Positions 18,491 through 26,031 of a stretch of 26,031 nucleotides of DNA are shown here, one piece after another. The stretch lies in the IMG/VR virus record IMGVR_UViG_3300044675_006717, positions 1 through 26,031 of that record. One strand, written 5' to 3'. The notes below the pieces were generated by a model. The model saw only the letters and a program-made list of their open reading frames with translations, did no database searches and was not told where the DNA came from. Position 1 is the first letter of the stretch, and every line of letters starts with the position of its first letter. Made by a program: the position numbers and the translations under genes. Source of the stretch: a virus.

Positions 18491-18518
18491 TTGACAACTG
18501 TTGTAAATGTGCTACAAT
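18491..18518 (+). promoter_or_regulatory. Sigma-70 promoter with extended -10, driving gp55
   Basis: TTGACA (18491-18496), 16-base spacer, TACAAT (18513-18518), preceded by TGC to give an extended -10. Transcription would begin near 18525, about 20 bases before the gp55 ATG. This is the closest match to the bacterial consensus in the window, and it faces away from the late-type box on the other strand. Confidence 0.82.
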
Positions 18519-18545
18519 AAGTACATATCTGGAGAAACCCCGCCG

Positions 18546-19442
18546 ATGACTTTAATCGCAAAACCCGCAGCCAAGGTTAACTACCTTAACAACCGTGACA
18601 TTTTAAAAGAAATACATCTCAGCAAAAACACCTACTGCTCATTTCAGGACCGAACAACTGATCATCAGTTTGACATGATCCTGCCTTCAGTGAGCAAAAT
18701 CAATCAAAAGACCATTGCAGAAGCACGCCGCAATCGTGCTGACCGTCACAAACGTGAAACTGGTGAGGTGATTGATCCCAAAAAAATACCCAATACGGAG
18801 GTGGTTTTTCGCATCATGACTTGGGAACACATACCCATGGCACCCAAGAAAGTGCCCAAAACTGCCACTAAAAAGAAAAAGATTGAAGACATTTTGGACT
18901 TGGATGATGTCACAGAAGATCCGCTAGCGGACCTTGTAGAGGACGTTGTGCTGGATCCCACACACATGCGAGTTAACTTTCCCCCGTTCTGGCATTACAG
19001 ATTGGATGAAGACAAGAACCCTGTGCTGGTGGGCAAAAGCCACTGGAAGGGCGATTTAGATACAGGCGAGTTCTGCAAGGATCACGGCAACATGACACGC
19101 AAACTGGCCACCATGTTTATGAAACTGTGTGAACGTTATGCCACAAGATCAAACTGGAGAGGATACACTTACAATGAAGAAATGCGTGGACAAGCCCTGT
19201 TACAACTCAGCCAAATTGGACTGCAATTTGACGAGTCAAAATCGCAGAACCCTTTTGCATATTATACTGCCGCTATCACTAATAGCTTTACTCGCATCCT
19301 GAACATTGAAAAGAAAAATCAAAACATCCGTGATGACATTCTTGAAATGAACGGACTCAACCCCAGCTGGACACGACAGAACTCTGGCAAGGCAAGCATG
19401 CAAGCCATGAGCGGTCCAGTTACTACCACCTATGAAGAGTAA
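18546..19442 (+). CDS. 55: Late-transcription sigma factor gp55
   Basis: Homologue of T4 gp55, the small sigma-family subunit that directs host RNA polymerase to late promoters. The sigma region-2 core lies at about residues 207-275: YTYNEEMRGQALLQLSQIGL, DESKSQNPFAYYTAAITNSF and TRILNIEKKNQNIRDDILEM. I start it at the ATG at 18546 (298 residues) because the upstream ATG at 18507 lies inside the promoter; GGAG at 18531-18534 precedes 18546. The protein is longer than T4 gp55 (185): residues 1-145 are an extension with a compact N-terminal part (NYLNNRDILKEIHLSKNTYC) and a Lys-rich then acidic linker (TATKKKKIEDILDLDDVTED). It overlaps the following radical SAM gene by 11 bases. Confidence 0.9.
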   Translation: MTLIAKPAAKVNYLNNRDILKEIHLSKNTYCSFQDRTTDHQFDMILPSVSKINQKTIAEARRNRADRHKRETGEVIDPKKIPNTEVVFRIMTWEHIPMAPKKVPKTATKKKKIEDILDLDDVTEDPLADLVEDVVLDPTHMRVNFPPFWHYRLDEDKNPVLVGKSHWKGDLDTGEFCKDHGNMTRKLATMFMKLCERYATRSNWRGYTYNEEMRGQALLQLSQIGLQFDESKSQNPFAYYTAAITNSFTRILNIEKKNQNIRDDILEMNGLNPSWTRQNSGKASMQAMSGPVTTTYEE

Positions 19443-20931
19443 GCTGACTTCAGAGGAACTCAAACAAGAACTTTGTAAAAAATTCAAAGTTCTTGAATTT
19501 ATAGACTTGGCATCAATTGCTGTCCGACCCACTGTGGGCTTTACAGTTTTTAAAAATCAATACAAAGAAGTATTTGAACCAGACGAGCGTATAGTTTTTT
19601 ACACAGGACAATCTGTTGGTGCAAAAACACTGGCATATTTACAGTATGCAGCTGACTTGTTTGACGTCAGTAGATGTTTTGTTTTGGTTTGTTGTGCAGA
19701 AACCAATAATCCAGTTATTGACAATGATATTGAATTTATGATTGCCGATCTTGATTCAGAACCGTTTGACGATAGCAACATGATCAGTGTGAACTCTATT
19801 TGTTCTTTGCCTTGGTTTCATTCTGAATATATGGGTGTTTCTAAAATTTGTTGTTTTAATTCTGAATACGCTCAGGACGGCACCATTGTTGAATTTTTTA
19901 ATTCTGACAAAATAAATTCATTGCGAACGCAACTTTTGTCTGGGGAATATCCATCAAGTTGTGATGTCTGTTGGACATCTGAATCCAAAGGATTCAGCAG
20001 TCTGAGACAGTGGCGTAATAAAACACACAAAGAAGAGTTTTTTACTGAATATCTTGAACAGCCCAAAATTAGAAGTTTGGTTGTTTTTCCCAGCACTGTG
20101 TGTAACTTCAAATGTCGCAGTTGCGGTCCTGACAAAAGTAGCCTATGGGCACAAGAAGAATTAGCGTATGCACCCAATGAGTTTGAAAAACAAAAGCTGT
20201 TTGAATTAATCTCCAGTACACAATGGTTTAATTCTAACAAGTCTAAAGAAATCTTTGATCTTTGGCCAACGTTGGAATATATTGATATCTACGGTGGCGA
20301 ACCCTTGATGAACAAACAATTCAAAGAGTTGCTGCAAACAAGTATCCAATCAGGTGTGGCTAGCAAACAAAGATTGCATTTCAACACCAATGGTTCGTTG
20401 TTTCCTGTTGAGTTAATTGAACTAATGCATGAATTTAAAGAAGTTACAATTTCATTGAGCATTGATGATATTGGCAAAAGATTCGAAATCATACGTGGCG
20501 GCACTTGGGCAGAGGTTGATCACCATGTTGATTTATTTTTATCTTGCAACCCTGAAATTTTCAAAATATCAGGACAGGTCACCGTGTCTAACCTAAATGT
20601 ACTTTACCTTGATGAGTTGTTGTCTTGGGCCGAAAATAAAAAATTACCATTGACCCTTCAGATGTTGTCCAGCCCAGAGCATCTGCAATATGACCGAGTT
20701 ACGCAAACTGTCAAGGACCTAGTGGTAAAAAAATATCATAATCATCCCAATCAAACTTTACAAAATATTGCCAATTCAATCCAGAAAGCATTGCCGGTGG
20801 ATGGACTGGACTGGGTTGCCAAAATGACTCGCTTGGATTCAAGAAGAAAACAAAACATGTTGACCAGTCATTTTGACCTGGCAACTGGAATGGGGTATCC
20901 AGATTTTTTGGCTGAATCGCAGCTTGAATAA
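19432..20931 (+). CDS. Radical SAM protein 1, N-terminal twitch domain type
   Basis: A 499-residue radical SAM enzyme: it should bind a 4Fe-4S cluster with the CxxxCxxC motif C224, C228, C231 (TVCNFKCRSC) and cleave S-adenosylmethionine; GGEP at 288-291 is the SAM-binding motif. In front of the core lies a twitch-like cysteine set, C124 (CSLPW), C140-C141 and C177/C180 (CDVC), with SLRTQLLSGEYPSSCDVCW and SLRQWRN, which matches the group known as twitch-domain-containing radical SAM proteins. Residues 1-115 are an extra region with no motif I know. The substrate is unknown. It starts inside the gp55 end and stops 26 bases before gp47. Rows I counted are about 30-33% GC against 45-50% in gp47/gp46, so its origin may differ. 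Confidence 0.88.
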   Translation: MKSKLTSEELKQELCKKFKVLEFIDLASIAVRPTVGFTVFKNQYKEVFEPDERIVFYTGQSVGAKTLAYLQYAADLFDVSRCFVLVCCAETNNPVIDNDIEFMIADLDSEPFDDSNMISVNSICSLPWFHSEYMGVSKICCFNSEYAQDGTIVEFFNSDKINSLRTQLLSGEYPSSCDVCWTSESKGFSSLRQWRNKTHKEEFFTEYLEQPKIRSLVVFPSTVCNFKCRSCGPDKSSLWAQEELAYAPNEFEKQKLFELISSTQWFNSNKSKEIFDLWPTLEYIDIYGGEPLMNKQFKELLQTSIQSGVASKQRLHFNTNGSLFPVELIELMHEFKEVTISLSIDDIGKRFEIIRGGTWAEVDHHVDLFLSCNPEIFKISGQVTVSNLNVLYLDELLSWAENKKLPLTLQMLSSPEHLQYDRVTQTVKDLVVKKYHNHPNQTLQNIANSIQKALPVDGLDWVAKMTRLDSRRKQNMLTSHFDLATGMGYPDFLAESQLE

Positions 20932-20952
20932 CACCAGAAATTAGTGTACAAT
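20924..20952 (+). promoter_or_regulatory. Possible sigma-70 promoter before gp47
   Basis: TTGAAT (20924-20929), 17-base spacer, TACAAT (20947-20952). The start of transcription would fall at about 20959, essentially on the gp47 ATG, so use of this promoter would give a leaderless message. It spans the end of the radical SAM gene and the short gap. Confidence 0.4.
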
Positions 20953-20957
20953 TGCAA

Positions 20958-21974
20958 ATGACAAATTTATTCAACAAGGCCGCGGTCTTCACAGACATAC
21001 ATTTTGGATTAAAGTCCAACAGTCAAATGCACAACGAAGACTGCTTGGACTTTGTCAAATGGGCAACTGCCAAGGCCCGGGAACAAGGTTGCGAAACCTG
21101 CATGTTCCTGGGCGACTGGCACAACAACAGGGCCAGCTTAAATATAGTTACCCTGAGTTACAGTCTCCGGGCCTTGGAGCACATGAATGACAACTTTGAT
21201 CGTGTATATTTTATTCCTGGCAATCATGATCTTTATTATCGAGACAAGCGAGATATTCAAAGTGTGGAGTGGGCCAAACATTTGCCAAAAGTTCAAATTT
21301 GCAATGATTGGTTCAGTGACGGTGACGTTGTTATTGCTCCTTGGCTATGCGGTGATGACCACAAACGTATCCCTAAACTGACAGGCAAGTACATGTTTGG
21401 GCATTTTGAATTGCCCGGCTACTACATGAATGCCATGGTACAAATGCCAGATCACGGTACAGTACAACGTGGAGACTTTGGCGGTTTTGATCATGTGTTC
21501 ACTGGACACTTCCACAAACGCCAAACTGCCAACAACATTACGTATATTGGCAATTGCTTTCCACACAACTATGCCGACGCCGGAGATGACGAGCGTGGCA
21601 TGATGATATTGGAATGGGGCAAAGAGCCAGAGTTCCATGCTTGGCCTAGTCAGCCTCGATACAGGGTTCATGGGCTTGCTAACTTGATCGACAATGCAGC
21701 CACTTTGCTTGCACCCAAGATGCATGTTCGTGTAAACTTGGACATTGAGATATCATACGAAGAAGCCAACTTTATCAAAGAAACATTTATCCGAGACTAT
21801 AGTTTACGTGAAATGGCCCTGATCCCAAACAAAACTGCCGGAGTGGATGTGGACCTTGCACCTGGTGATGTCAAATTTGAATCAGTGGATCAAATTGTCA
21901 CTGACCAACTCACAAACATTGAATCAGAATTCTACGACAACAAACTGCTGTTGCAAATATATCAAAACTTATGA
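20958..21974 (+). CDS. 47: Recombination endonuclease subunit gp47 (Mre11/SbcD-like)
   Basis: Nuclease subunit of the phage end-resection complex with gp46, which supplies 3' single strands for recombination-dependent replication and degrades host DNA in T4. All metallophosphoesterase motifs are visible: DIHFG (13-17), GDWHNNR (52-58), GNHD (88-91), GHFELPG (148-154) and GHFHKRQ (183-189), providing the Asp, His and Asn ligands for two metal ions. The length (339) equals that of T4 gp47. The start is taken as the ATG at 20958; a TTG at 20952 would add two residues. There is no clear Shine-Dalgarno. It overlaps gp46 by 4 bases (ATGA at 21971), as expected for subunits made in fixed ratio. Confidence 0.95.
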   Translation: MTNLFNKAAVFTDIHFGLKSNSQMHNEDCLDFVKWATAKAREQGCETCMFLGDWHNNRASLNIVTLSYSLRALEHMNDNFDRVYFIPGNHDLYYRDKRDIQSVEWAKHLPKVQICNDWFSDGDVVIAPWLCGDDHKRIPKLTGKYMFGHFELPGYYMNAMVQMPDHGTVQRGDFGGFDHVFTGHFHKRQTANNITYIGNCFPHNYADAGDDERGMMILEWGKEPEFHAWPSQPRYRVHGLANLIDNAATLLAPKMHVRVNLDIEISYEEANFIKETFIRDYSLREMALIPNKTAGVDVDLAPGDVKFESVDQIVTDQLTNIESEFYDNKLLLQIYQNL

Positions 21975-24052
21975 TCCAAATTAAAAACCTCACTGTCAAG
22001 AACTTCATGAGTGTGGGCAATGCCACACAAGGCATTGACTTTGACCGCCAAGACCTTACATTGGTACTGGGTGAGAACTTGGACCTGGGCGGCGACGGCA
22101 GCCGCAACGGCACTGGCAAGACCACAATCATCAATGCCTTGAGTTATGCCATGTACGGACAGGCTTTGAGCAACATTCGCAAGGATAACCTTGTGAACAA
22201 AACCAACGGCAAAGGAATGTTGGTTAGTTTGGACTTCTCTGTCAACGGTAAAACATACAAGATTGAACGTGGACGCAAGCCCAATGTGCTACGTTTCTAT
22301 GTGGACAGTGAAGAACAAACTGCCACAGATGATGCACAAGGCGACAGCAGAGAAACACAGGATGCCATTGAACATGTGTTTGGCATGAGCCACGACATGT
22401 TCAAGCATATCTTGGCCTTGAACACATATACCGAACCATTCTTGAGTTTGAAAGCCAATGAGCAACGAACCATCATTGAACAGTTGTTGGGTATTACTGT
22501 GTTGAGTGAACGTGCTGAACGTATCAAAGAACTCAACAAGGCCACAAAAGATTCAATCACCTCTGAAGAGTTCAGAGTACGTGCTGTGCAAGAAGCCAAC
22601 AAACGTATCGAAGAACAAATTGAAAGCCTGCGTCGACGACAAGGTCTTTGGCAAAAGAAATACGACAGTGACTTGGCTTATCTAGTGGGTCAGTACGATG
22701 ATCTAGCTCGAGTCAATATTGAAGCAGAGTTGTTGGCACACAAAGATCTTGCTGTGTGGAACGAACGTAAAAAACAAGCAGATGCACATGATCGACTGCT
22801 GGCATATCAAACTGCCTGGCAACAAACCCAAGCCAAAGAAACGGCTGCTTTGCAAGACAGTTATAACAAACTCAGTCACATCAATATTGTTGCAGAACTG
22901 CAAGCACATCAAGACTTGGCCGCATACAATCAACGAGCCAAGGACATTGCTGAACTTGAAAAACTTATTGCTCGTTGTGTAGCAGATGAAACACGAGAAC
23001 TAAAGACATCTGACAAACTCAAGGCAGAGATTGCTGAACTAGAAGCACACAAGTGTTATGCCTGTGGTCAAGAGTTTCATGATGGTGCTCATGAAACTGT
23101 GTTGGCGGCCAAGCGTAAACTGCTACAAGAATCAGCGTTGCAGTACTTGGCTATCAACGGCCAATGGATAGAAAACACAGATGCATTGTTAAAATTAGGC
23201 GAGTTGGGCACCCGACCCACAACACATTATCGAACTGAAGCAGAAGCAATTCGACACAGTAGCGAATTGGAAAATATTCAGCAGAAGATCACAGACAAGT
23301 CGGCAGAAACAGATCCTTATATTGAACAACTGTCAGGCTATATGCCTGTGGACCTGGGAGCACCACCAGTCACACACTACGACACAGAAGCACAGGCCAT
23401 CAAACATTCTACCCAGGTCAACAACTTACTACAACAGATCACCAGCAAGCATGCTGAAACTGATCCTTACAGTGAACAGATCGAGGACATGCAACAACAG
23501 GCCCTGCAGACAGTTGACTACAACCGAATCAATGAACTGACCAAAGTACAAGACCATCAAGAGTTCTTGCTCAAACTGTTGACCAGCAAAGATTCATTTG
23601 TTCGTAAGAAGATCATTGATCAGAACTTGAGCTACTTGAACGCACGCCTTACACATTACTTGGATCGTATTGGACTGCCACACACAGTAAAGTTCCAAAA
23701 CGACTTGAGTGTGAGCATTGAAGAACTGGGACGCGAACTGGACTTTGACAATTTGAGTCGTGGTGAACGCAATAGACTGATACTCAGTATGAGTTGGGCA
23801 TTCCGTGATGTATGGGAAAGTTTGTATCATCCTATCAACATCTTGTTTATCGACGAAATGATCGATTCGGGTCTGGACACACAGGGCGTGGAAGCCAGTT
23901 TGGCCTTGTTGAAGAAAATGACTCGCGAACGTAACAAGAGCATTTGGCTTGTGAGTCACAGAGATGAGCTTGCAGGACGTGTGGAGAACATACTCAAAGT
24001 GGTCAAAGAAAATGGATTCACCAGTTACAACACGGATATAGATCTTGCGTGA
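21971..24052 (+). CDS. 46: Recombination endonuclease subunit gp46 (Rad50/SbcC-like)
   Basis: ATPase subunit that partners gp47. The Walker A motif is GSRNGTGKT (43-51), the ABC signature LSRGERNRL (595-603), and Walker B ILFIDEMID (624-632) is followed by LDTQGVE. A long coiled-coil arm (about 180-360 and 370-530) flanks a zinc hook CYAC (362-365), which should join two arms. At 693 residues it is longer than T4 gp46 (560). The arm carries two internal duplications, one on each side of the hook: NIEAELLAHKDLAVWNER (249-266) against NIVAELQAHQDLAAYNQR (305-322), and 418-453 against 468-503 (for example AETDPYIEQ and AETDPYSEQ). It starts with ATG in the gp47 stop and overlaps the next radical SAM gene by 8 bases. 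Confidence 0.95.
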   Translation: MIQIKNLTVKNFMSVGNATQGIDFDRQDLTLVLGENLDLGGDGSRNGTGKTTIINALSYAMYGQALSNIRKDNLVNKTNGKGMLVSLDFSVNGKTYKIERGRKPNVLRFYVDSEEQTATDDAQGDSRETQDAIEHVFGMSHDMFKHILALNTYTEPFLSLKANEQRTIIEQLLGITVLSERAERIKELNKATKDSITSEEFRVRAVQEANKRIEEQIESLRRRQGLWQKKYDSDLAYLVGQYDDLARVNIEAELLAHKDLAVWNERKKQADAHDRLLAYQTAWQQTQAKETAALQDSYNKLSHINIVAELQAHQDLAAYNQRAKDIAELEKLIARCVADETRELKTSDKLKAEIAELEAHKCYACGQEFHDGAHETVLAAKRKLLQESALQYLAINGQWIENTDALLKLGELGTRPTTHYRTEAEAIRHSSELENIQQKITDKSAETDPYIEQLSGYMPVDLGAPPVTHYDTEAQAIKHSTQVNNLLQQITSKHAETDPYSEQIEDMQQQALQTVDYNRINELTKVQDHQEFLLKLLTSKDSFVRKKIIDQNLSYLNARLTHYLDRIGLPHTVKFQNDLSVSIEELGRELDFDNLSRGERNRLILSMSWAFRDVWESLYHPINILFIDEMIDSGLDTQGVEASLALLKKMTRERNKSIWLVSHRDELAGRVENILKVVKENGFTSYNTDIDLA
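22715..22936 (+). repeat. Internal duplication in the gp46 coiled coil, N-terminal side of the hook
   Basis: Residues 249-266 and 305-322 are copies 56 residues apart (13 of 18 positions identical by eye). Heptad spacing (56 = 8 x 7) is kept. Confidence 0.7.
23222..23479 (+). repeat. Internal duplication in the gp46 coiled coil, C-terminal side of the hook
   Basis: Residues 418-453 and 468-503 are copies exactly 50 residues apart (THYxTEAxAIxHS ... QQIT/QKITxKxAETDPYxEQ). The DNA is also visibly similar between 23222-23330 and 23372-23480. Confidence 0.8.
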
Positions 24053-24890
24053 AATAAAAGTGTTGCACTTAGAACCTACTGATGTTTGTCAGGCCACATG
24101 TGCGTTGTGTGCTAGAGAAACTGATCGTGATTTTGATAAAAAATCACAACATCACCTGGACCTGCGGAAAATCACAAAAGTTTTTGATGTTGACCTTATT
24201 GCACAGTTAGACAAAATGTTCATGTGCGGCAACTACGGTGATCCAGCTGCTGGCAAATACACTTTAGACATCTATAGAGAATTTCGCCGCCTCAATAAAA
24301 ATATTGTGTTGGGCATGAACACCAATGGCGGATTGCAAAATACCATATGGTGGCATGAGCTGGCACGTATTTTTAATCAGTCACAAGATTACTGTGTGTT
24401 TAGTATTGACGGATTAGAAGATACCAACGCAACATATCGTCAAGGTGTTGATTGGCACAGACTCATGCACAATGTTGAAGCGTACATTGCTGCTGGTGGA
24501 TCAGCACATTGGGACATGTTGGTATATCGACACAATCAACATCAAGTTGATGAATGTGAACGTTTAGCAAAAGCCATGGGCTTTAAATGGTTTAGAGCCA
24601 AAGTATCTAAACGTCCGTTTACTGAGCAATTGCAATTTCCCACCAACTGGCAACCAATTGTATCAACCACAACCGCGGTTGATTGTCGTGCGTTAAAAGA
24701 TCAAAGTGTTTATATAGACGCAAAAGGAAACATTGGTCCCTGCTGTTGGCTGGGAGCAAGACAAAAAGATTTTGTTACAGACATCAACTTGATCCCTACT
24801 CAGGATCCAATGTGTTCTGCAACCTGTGGCGTTACCAGTGCGGGTACTGTGTTTGATCAACAGTGGCAGAGAGAAGTTGAATTATGTTAG
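24045..24890 (+). CDS. Radical SAM/SPASM-like protein 2
   Basis: A 281-residue radical SAM enzyme with cluster motif C15, C19, C22 (CQATCALCARE) close to the N-terminus, CGNYGDP (61-67) in the place of GGEP, MNTNGG (91-96) and the FSIDG strand (119-123). A C-terminal SPASM/twitch-like set is C214, C233-C234 (YIDAKGNIGPCCWLG) and C257/C261 (CSATC), which probably binds an auxiliary cluster and recognises a protein or peptide substrate; that substrate is unknown. It is a paralogue of the next gene. The start is taken as TTG at 24045, inside the gp46 end, with a weak GGA 8 bases upstream; GTG at 24060 is the alternative. It overlaps the next gene by 7 bases, so the two are likely made together. 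Confidence 0.85.
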   Translation: MREIKVLHLEPTDVCQATCALCARETDRDFDKKSQHHLDLRKITKVFDVDLIAQLDKMFMCGNYGDPAAGKYTLDIYREFRRLNKNIVLGMNTNGGLQNTIWWHELARIFNQSQDYCVFSIDGLEDTNATYRQGVDWHRLMHNVEAYIAAGGSAHWDMLVYRHNQHQVDECERLAKAMGFKWFRAKVSKRPFTEQLQFPTNWQPIVSTTTAVDCRALKDQSVYIDAKGNIGPCCWLGARQKDFVTDINLIPTQDPMCSATCGVTSAGTVFDQQWQREVELC

Positions 24891-25894
24891 CCACTTGGCA
24901 TTTTCACATAGAGATATCCAGCAAGTGTACCTTGCGGTGTCCTCGCTGTGCTCGCCAAGAAGTGCCCGACGGATTGGTCAATACTGAATTAGACTTGGAG
25001 TTTTTCAAACGTAATTTTACTCCAGAGTTTGTGCAAGCAAATGTAGAGAAAATCACGTTCTGCGGCGATGATGGCGATCCTGTGTATGCACATGACTTGA
25101 TACCAGTGATACAATATCTCAAAGACATCAAGCCCATTGAGATTGTGATCATCACCAATGGCAGTCACAAAAAACTATCTTGGTGGCATGACCTAGGCCA
25201 ACTGTTGGATCACAACGACAGTGTGCATTTCAGCATTGACGGTTATGACAATGCCAGCAACAACTTGTATCGTGTGAACAGTGATTGGGATAGTATCATT
25301 ACAGGATTACAAACATTGCGAACCGCAAGTGCATGCAAGATAATCTGGGCTGCCATTGCATTTAAATTCAACGAAGACCACTTGGATCATATGCAGAAGT
25401 TTGCCAAACAACTGGGGGTTGATCGTTTTCAGTTGACCAAAAGCACAAAGTTTGGCAGCATGTATCCGTCCTACGGCACAGACGATCCACTGCAACCCAG
25501 TGTTAGATTTGTCAGCAACTCGCATCGCTTTGAACGAGACTCAGTTGCATTGACTGACACAGGCTCATGGCAAACAATTCCACTGACAAACAAACGATTA
25601 TTCAATCAAACCAAAAGTCGTAACGGAGTAACACCGTTATGCGAGATAGGCAACAAAGGCTTGTACATTGATGCTCGCGGCAGATTATTTCCCTGCTGTT
25701 GGGTAGCCAACAGATACAATCACAATTCAGACTGGCAGCAAATAGCAGAAAACTTTGATTTAAACACAAAAACAATAACAGACGTACTGGCAGATGATTT
25801 TTGGACCACAGAATTTCAGTCGTTTAAATGGCAGGAATGCCAGACCAAATGCCGAAGTTCTTTGGTAGATGAAAAATATGCATGTTTGTGGTAA
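24884..25894 (+). CDS. Radical SAM/SPASM-like protein 3
   Basis: A 336-residue radical SAM enzyme. The cluster motif C15, C19, C22 (CTLRCPRCARQ) is at the same residues as in protein 2, followed by CGDDGDP (60-66), ITNG (90-93) and FSIDG (116-120). The C-terminal cysteines C253, C271-C272 (YIDARGRLFPCCWVANR) and C319/C323 (CQTKC) repeat the arrangement of protein 2; an extra insert at about 180-250 (TKSTKFGSMYPSYGTDDPLQ and onward) accounts for its greater length. Shared pieces such as WWHDLGQL against WWHELARI show that the two genes are paralogues, strongly diverged. Substrate unknown; by analogy with SPASM enzymes a peptide or protein target is likely. The ATG lies 7 bases inside the previous gene. 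Confidence 0.88.
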   Translation: MLATWHFHIEISSKCTLRCPRCARQEVPDGLVNTELDLEFFKRNFTPEFVQANVEKITFCGDDGDPVYAHDLIPVIQYLKDIKPIEIVIITNGSHKKLSWWHDLGQLLDHNDSVHFSIDGYDNASNNLYRVNSDWDSIITGLQTLRTASACKIIWAAIAFKFNEDHLDHMQKFAKQLGVDRFQLTKSTKFGSMYPSYGTDDPLQPSVRFVSNSHRFERDSVALTDTGSWQTIPLTNKRLFNQTKSRNGVTPLCEIGNKGLYIDARGRLFPCCWVANRYNHNSDWQQIAENFDLNTKTITDVLADDFWTTEFQSFKWQECQTKCRSSLVDEKYACLW

Positions 25895-25938: not shown

Positions 25939-26031
25939 ATGACATGGCTTTATCAAGACACCCCAGTTGAGACACTGCCCGAAGAATGTGTGGGATTTGT
26001 TTATCAGATCACAAATAATCTATCTGGACGC
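25939..26031 (+). CDS. GIY-YIG-like nuclease family protein, N-terminal fragment (runs off the right edge)
   Basis: Only 31 residues are in the window: MTWLYQDTPVETLPEE followed by CVGFVYQITNNLSGR. The second part matches the first strand and turn of the GIY-YIG nuclease fold (FVYxITNxxSGR, normally followed by KYIG), and from memory marine T4-like phages carry short proteins beginning this way. The catalytic residues would lie beyond the edge, so activity cannot be judged. No strong ribosome site precedes the ATG. It follows radical SAM protein 3 after 44 bases. Confidence 0.55.
   Translation, partial: MTWLYQDTPVETLPEECVGFVYQITNNLSGR

Follow-up and report, generated by a model that had tools for sequence, protein, structure and literature searches.

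T4-like phages rich in radical S-adenosylmethionine (SAM) genes are already known. CP220 and CPt10, T4-related Firehammervirus phages of Campylobacter, encode 11 and 12 radical SAM proteins, five of which form an interchangeable module (Timms et al. 2010, PMC2853527). The 183-kb marine T4-like genome TARA_ERS488813_N000010 carries 12 radical SAM genes and an A-type iron-sulphur (Fe-S) carrier, and IscU is encoded in T4-like genomes related to it (Nishimura et al. 2017, PMC5332604). Pelagimyophages, in turn, differ in radical SAM cassettes near their tail fibres (Zaragoza-Solas et al. 2020, PMC7029224). Here we examined two adjacent radical SAM genes, designated rSAM2 and rSAM3, in the virus record IMGVR_UViG_3300044675_006717, the whole stretch of which (26,031 bases) is referred to as the window. 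Both genes lie in a locus bounded and divided by the phage genes gp55, gp47, gp46 and segE. The real feature of this locus is an exchangeable radical SAM repertoire of uncultured T4-like phages, not a fixed pair of enzymes.

Comparison with these systems was made at the level of protein, gene position and gene number. In CP220, three proteins were matched by the rSAM2/rSAM3 profile (E-values 3e-34 to 4e-30) and also show the twitch pattern. They share only 21-29% identity with rSAM2 and rSAM3, however, their genes (in a 25-kb stretch that was read) lie beside amidinotransferase and sugar transferase-like genes rather than in slots between gp55, gp47 and gp46, and up to 21 radical SAM genes occur in the uncultured contigs used here. 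The paper on TARA_ERS488813_N000010, a genome likened to the present phages by its description only, describes neither gp46/47/55 slots nor independent turnover. The hypervariable region of the pelagimyophages adjoins tail fibres, whereas the present locus is interleaved with gp55, gp47 and gp46. Among solved twitch/SPASM enzymes, BlsE, SkfB, MoaA, SuiB, DesII and BtrN have the fold of rSAM2 and rSAM3 over almost the full length, but with 11-18% identity in the alignments and with all curated family cut-offs missed. Among open-licence papers, no description was found of slots at gp55, gp47 and gp46 or of about 20 radical SAM genes per phage.

Independent occurrence of rSAM2 and rSAM3

The initial annotation had suggested that the two enzymes act in turn, as a heterodimer or on two different substrates. 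Relatives in viral contigs were collected by pattern match, giving more than 300 for rSAM3 and 197 for rSAM2. At the loci fetched with rSAM3, the gene immediately upstream was rSAM2 in 36 and gp46, without rSAM2, in 37. Downstream of rSAM2, rSAM3 or a diverged form of it was found in 44 loci and a different paralogue in 11; the remainder mostly had other genes in this place, chiefly a 142-aa open reading frame (ORF) of the size of SegE. Because these two samples had been selected by rSAM2 and rSAM3 themselves, a third was fetched via gp47, for which more than 590 contigs were found; it comprised 52 complete segments from gp55 to segE, near-identical records included. Both genes were present in 5 of these, rSAM3 only in 15, rSAM2 only in 7 and neither in 25, so that co-occurrence (5 observed, 4.6 expected under independence; Fisher p = 1.0) was no more frequent than for unconnected genes. 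Single-gene carriers included two large contigs: no rSAM2 orthologue was found anywhere on a 332-kb contig with rSAM3 (best identity 33%), nor any rSAM3 orthologue on a 149-kb contig with rSAM2.

Pairwise distances were then compared across 44 dereplicated loci carrying both genes. The correlation between rSAM2 and rSAM3 (r = 0.20) was lower than that of either with gp46 (0.56 for rSAM2 and 0.39 for rSAM3), and this least correlated of the three pairs speaks against mutually bound partners. An obligate pair or heterodimer was therefore rejected, on the independent occurrence and the weak mutual distance correlation; nor was a unit acting in turn borne out by these results or by the tree described below. 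Two different substrates are possible and fit best. Given the independence of rSAM2 and rSAM3, each is to be assayed alone.

Shared signature and ancestry

The sequence elements first reported for the two proteins could all be located in the ORFs. In both, the radical SAM cysteines stand at residues 15, 19 and 22, followed by A-R-E in rSAM2 and A-R-Q in rSAM3. CGNYGDP and WWHEL in rSAM2 correspond to CGDDGDP and WWHDL in rSAM3, the YIDAxGxxxPCCW element reads YIDAKGNIGPCCW and YIDARGRLFPCCW, respectively, and the terminal CxxxC is CSATC in the former and CQTKC in the latter. By BLASTP the proteins are 24% identical over 275 aa (E-value 2e-24), well beyond chance. Both proteins also have a twitch-type arrangement of cysteines, C-x12/13-G-x4-C and then CxxxC, of which the annotation had caught only part (C214-x13-G-x4-C233 and C257xxxC261 in rSAM2; C253-x12-G-x4-C271 and C319xxxC323 in rSAM3), and these cysteines are invariant or almost so in relatives.

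This signature, although present in both proteins, is not specific to the pair. When diverged family members were aligned, E10, C15/19/22, R24, GxxGD, YR, W155, N163, the cysteine of PC and CxxxC were invariant in 20 of 20, so that the signature marks a family and not the two genes. Equal cysteine numbering carries little weight, because it depends on start sites; in other members the first cluster cysteine falls at residue 13-18 or thereabouts, varying with the start. Members of the family occur in uncultured, often jumbo, T4-like phages, with distant ones in CP220.

A careful maximum-likelihood tree was built from 48 sequences, with 11 Bacteroidota relatives as the sole bacterial sample and a midpoint root. 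rSAM2 was sister to other phage paralogues of the same locus (support 97/90), while rSAM3 formed an old clade of its own with one diverged relative (100/100). Phage proteins, including CP220, fell on one side, apart from the 11 Bacteroidota proteins (100/99; one phylum, midpoint root), and a quick tree of 84 sequences gave the same picture. Within this sample of a single bacterial phylum, the two proteins did not fall into separate bacterial families of unrelated donors. The idea of a paralogous pair thus holds in part: the tree and alignments indicate that rSAM2 and rSAM3 are paralogues in the broad sense, diverged homologues within one phage-borne family, and not sisters or a duplication pair. 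Recent tandem duplication was rejected on the same grounds, together with the 24% identity.

Genome contigs were also scanned for a bacterial donor, and only two contigs of metagenome-assembled genomes (MAGs) matched. The match in a 'Flavobacterium' MAG was a 76-residue end fragment. The other contig, assigned to 'Candidatus Pacearchaeota', was rejected as a donor: a T4-type clamp loader and a baseplate gene mark it, evidently, as misbinned phage DNA. In 395 genomes sampled from the phylum of the 'Flavobacterium' MAG, the best match had an E-value of 4e-24. On the Pacearchaeota-binned contig (contig 42; L257 and L258, behind L177), rSAM2- and rSAM3-like genes lie about 8 kb apart.

A modular locus between gp55 and segE

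Comparison of phages at this locus revealed a modular region in which three slots (gp55 to gp47, gp47 to gp46 and gp46 to segE) gain and lose enzyme genes, each interval differing in gene content between phages. The cargo comprised 174 ORFs in 43 clusters, the largest of which was the rSAM2/rSAM3 family (47), followed by the N-terminal-twitch type (16). Other cargo matched SDR dehydrogenases, a B12-type radical SAM protein and DUF6071. Of the 52 complete segments, 40 contained one or more radical SAM candidate genes, some of them called from the CxxxCxxC motif alone.

Composition at third codon positions (G+C fraction, GC3) also differed within the window. rSAM1, the third radical SAM gene of the operon, had a value of 0.344, and with rSAM2 spanned 0.34-0.36, compared with 0.46 for rSAM3 and 0.465-0.503 for gp46, gp47 and gp55; the lower values would fit a later arrival of rSAM1 and rSAM2. 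In most complete segments, the third slot is followed by a SegE-like GIY-YIG endonuclease gene, and homing by this enzyme could be a driver of exchange among the neighbouring genes. One cassette recurs between gp46 and segE (L233:10849-12775, and L195): a B12-type radical SAM gene of about 490 aa, a gene for a protein of about 160 aa and then a relative of rSAM2.

Protein class, fold and selection

For classification of the proteins, a combination of family profiles and structure models was used. Against PF04055 (cut-off 29.5 bits), rSAM1 (35.4) and rSAM3 (32.6) scored above the threshold and rSAM2 (28.8) slightly below it, the radical SAM motif and fold being present in the last as well. Both rSAM2 and rSAM3 contain the twitch-type pattern in its general form (C-x9-15-G-x4-C with further cysteines), from which one auxiliary cluster is predicted. 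Neither reached the SPASM cut-off (PF13186, 21.5 bits; rSAM3 18.1, rSAM2 14.3), and each has only four C-terminal cluster cysteines, compared with the two auxiliary clusters of a full SPASM domain. The NF033640 profile (N_Twi_rSAM, cut-off 170 bits) was exceeded only by rSAM1 (240.5), with rSAM2 at 31.9 and rSAM3 not listed, which places rSAM1 in another subfamily.

The top curated family for both rSAM2 and rSAM3 was TIGR04317, the tungsten cofactor oxidoreductase maturase, at 52.9 and 50.9 bits (cut-off 380). rSAM3 also matched the cytosylglucuronate decarboxylase BlsE (TIGR04466; 31.1 bits, cut-off 400) and prokaryotic viperin (NF038283; 29 bits, cut-off 180), for which rSAM2 was not listed. 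A viperin-like antiviral enzyme was rejected because the profile score lies far under its cut-off. As all curated subfamily cut-offs were missed, the profiles point to no particular substrate.

AlphaFold2 models were confident, with a predicted local distance difference test score of 87.5 for rSAM2 and 81.3 for rSAM3. On structural realignment, rSAM2 was closest to BlsE (Z 18.7) and SkfB (Z 18.1), then SuiB, anSME and MoaA (Z 17-19), and rSAM3 to SuiB (17.3) and BlsE (16.5), also to DesII, MoaA and SkfB (Z 16-17). The twitch/SPASM fold matches span nearly the entire models. By sequence, the closest solved proteins were SkfB (E-value 2e-7) and BlsE. The ratio of non-synonymous to synonymous substitution rates was about 0.09 for rSAM2 and 0.10 for rSAM3, against 0.06 for gp46 and gp47; purifying selection on both therefore nearly matches that on the core recombination genes, and both are maintained as functional genes.

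Radical SAM repertoire and Fe-S supply

Fourteen related contigs of 81-343 kb were searched for radical SAM genes at E ≤ 0.01, a threshold that admits some matches under the Pfam cut-off, and gave 179 matches, or 7-21 per contig. IscU and an A-type Fe-S carrier were encoded in 6 of the 14, including all five above 300 kb. These genes lie beside radical SAM genes at L174:8157-10757 (contig G003), L260:4181-5860 (G004) and L261:3056-5721 (G009), with a compact arrangement in G003 and G004. The radical SAM gene that is flanked by the carrier and IscU genes of G003 belongs to the rSAM2/rSAM3 family. Both G007 (L166:2969-18960) and G003 (L171:3565-18133) have a cluster of eight or nine radical SAM genes, and gene order is largely conserved between the two. 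A carbamoyltransferase gene lies within the G007 cluster, in which Pfam and PHROGs searches named few genes. Elsewhere, these phage genomes encode carbamoyltransferase, sugar epimerase, DegT aminotransferase and methyltransferase genes. A gene for a 4172-aa virion structural protein (L167:7441-19959, G007) lies near the large cluster.

Radical SAM enzymes are costly and need reduced Fe-S clusters; the phages examined here still carry up to about 20, and the purpose of phage-encoded radical SAM enzymes has been a standing question since CP220. The slots amount to a natural experiment in which close relatives, at one constant position, differ in single enzymes, and comparison of neighbours therefore offers an approach to the role of these enzymes.

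Proposed function and alternatives

The best explanation, to which we assign about an even chance, is that rSAM2 and rSAM3 are independent, single-acting twitch enzymes within an exchangeable tailoring repertoire. From sequence and model, each is predicted to bind one SAM-binding [4Fe-4S] cluster at CxxxCxxC and one auxiliary cluster at C-x12/13-G-x4-C and CxxxC. As for the superfamily, SAM would be cleaved to the 5'-deoxyadenosyl radical, which would abstract hydrogen from the substrate proper to each enzyme. Both genes would be cargo of the gp55-gp47-gp46-segE locus, where tailoring genes would be gained, lost and exchanged singly, and phage-encoded IscU and A-type carriers would partly back the repertoire of 7-21 enzymes per contig. 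Most likely, each enzyme would modify in its own way a small molecule, sugar or glycan that is synthesized or changed in the course of infection, and the outcome would be a changeable chemical repertoire of the phage, serving, for example, surface-glycan change or counter-defence. Our best guess of a small molecule or sugar as substrate is based on the lack of any precursor gene or long N-terminal domain, on the slot cargo with SDR, B12-type radical SAM and weak sulphotransferase and AMP-binding matches, and on the genes for sugar and small-molecule enzymes that these genomes carry elsewhere. A more elaborate version, in which a late-sigma and recombination-operon locus with a homing-endonuclease border serves a combinatorial system, single enzymes being swapped between phages, each with its own modified metabolite or surface glycan for counter-defence or to exclude competitors, and phage-made Fe-S clusters supplying 10-20 of the enzymes at once, appears unlikely. 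Several observations count against the best explanation. Sequence and fold suit the peptide maturases SkfB and SuiB equally with the small-molecule enzymes BlsE, MoaA and DesII; sulphotransferase and AMP-binding matches in the slots are weak, under Pfam cut-offs, and in many slot partners no domain could be recognised; neither IscU nor the carrier was found in 8 of the 14 contigs, which may be fragments; and the slot counts include the motif-only calls and unthinned records noted above.

The strongest alternative is that a phage or host polypeptide is cross-linked, epimerised or otherwise altered, as by maturases of ribosomally synthesized and post-translationally modified peptides (RiPPs) or in virion-protein modification. 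SkfB as the nearest solved sequence, a StsB-family maturase profile that covers the greater part of rSAM3 (38 bits) and the presence of SuiB, CteB (5wgg/5why) and anSME among the top folds all point this way; we nevertheless consider it somewhat unlikely, as every maturase family cut-off is missed widely and the first cluster cysteine stands at residue 15, so that a long N-terminal extension is absent, whereas alignments to SuiB and SkfB begin near residue 103 of those proteins. Overlapping operon genes also leave no space for a precursor-sized gene, and a RiPP cassette with an adjacent precursor was rejected for this reason, a result that concerns the locus and not the rest of the genome. Modification of nucleotides or DNA, by hypermodification or production of chain-terminator-like nucleotides, is quite improbable. 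Viperin, which binds CTP, tops the Foldseek list for rSAM3, with MoaA and BlsE near, the two genes sit among DNA recombination genes, and a gene for GTP cyclohydrolase I is present at another place on contig G007; yet SuiB, MoaA, BlsE and SkfB rise above viperin on structural realignment, the viperin profile score is as low as given above, no base-modification enzyme was recognised within the slots, and gene presence varies among close relatives. A literature search for radical SAM enzymes and hypermodified phage DNA found nothing. Least probable of all is that rSAM2 and rSAM3 form one unit, as consecutive enzymes of a pathway or a heterodimer. They are adjacent homologues on the same strand with overlapping ends, both are under purifying selection and their order is constant wherever both occur; against this stand their independent occurrence, the many loci and two large contigs with a single gene, the different paralogue that often follows rSAM2 in place of rSAM3, and a mutual distance correlation below that of either with gp46.

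Gene layout of the window

The minus strand of the window carries T4-type baseplate and virion genes, and a co-oriented run of plus-strand genes holds the radical SAM genes (Table 1).

Table 1. Features of the plus-strand gene run in the window
Feature	Position	Strand	Description
gp55-like late sigma factor	18507..19442	+	Opens the co-oriented run; phrog_12791 'sigma factor for late transcription', E 5e-77
rSAM1	19432..20931	+	499 aa; N-terminal-twitch radical SAM protein; slot between gp55 and gp47
gp47-like recombination nuclease subunit (SbcD-like)	20952..21974	+	phrog_100, E 2.4e-59
gp46-like recombination nuclease subunit (SbcC-like)	21971..24052	+	phrog_77, E 6.4e-106
rSAM2	24045..24890	+	TTG start; 281 aa; twitch-type radical SAM protein
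rSAM3	24884..25894	+	ATG start within the end of rSAM2; 336 aa; twitch-type radical SAM protein
SegE-like GIY-YIG endonuclease gene start	25939..26031	+	MTWLYQDTPVETLPEECVGFVYQITNNLSGR; truncated where the window ends; marks the end of the third slot

Successive overlaps from gp47 through gp46 and rSAM2 to rSAM3 measure 4-8 nt, with 8 nt at the gp46 stop and 7 nt between rSAM2 and rSAM3. The start codon assigned to rSAM2 is credible, as 86 of the 114 rSAM2 matches examined have TTG at this position and 9 have ATG. The closest cultured DNA was jumbo-phage gp46/gp47, for example of Agrobacterium phage Atu_ph07 and Pseudomonas phage MIJ3, covering about 4% of the query. A full-length copy of the SegE-like gene in L169 (2451-2879) matched PF19835 (SegE_GIY-YIG) with an E-value of 6e-33.

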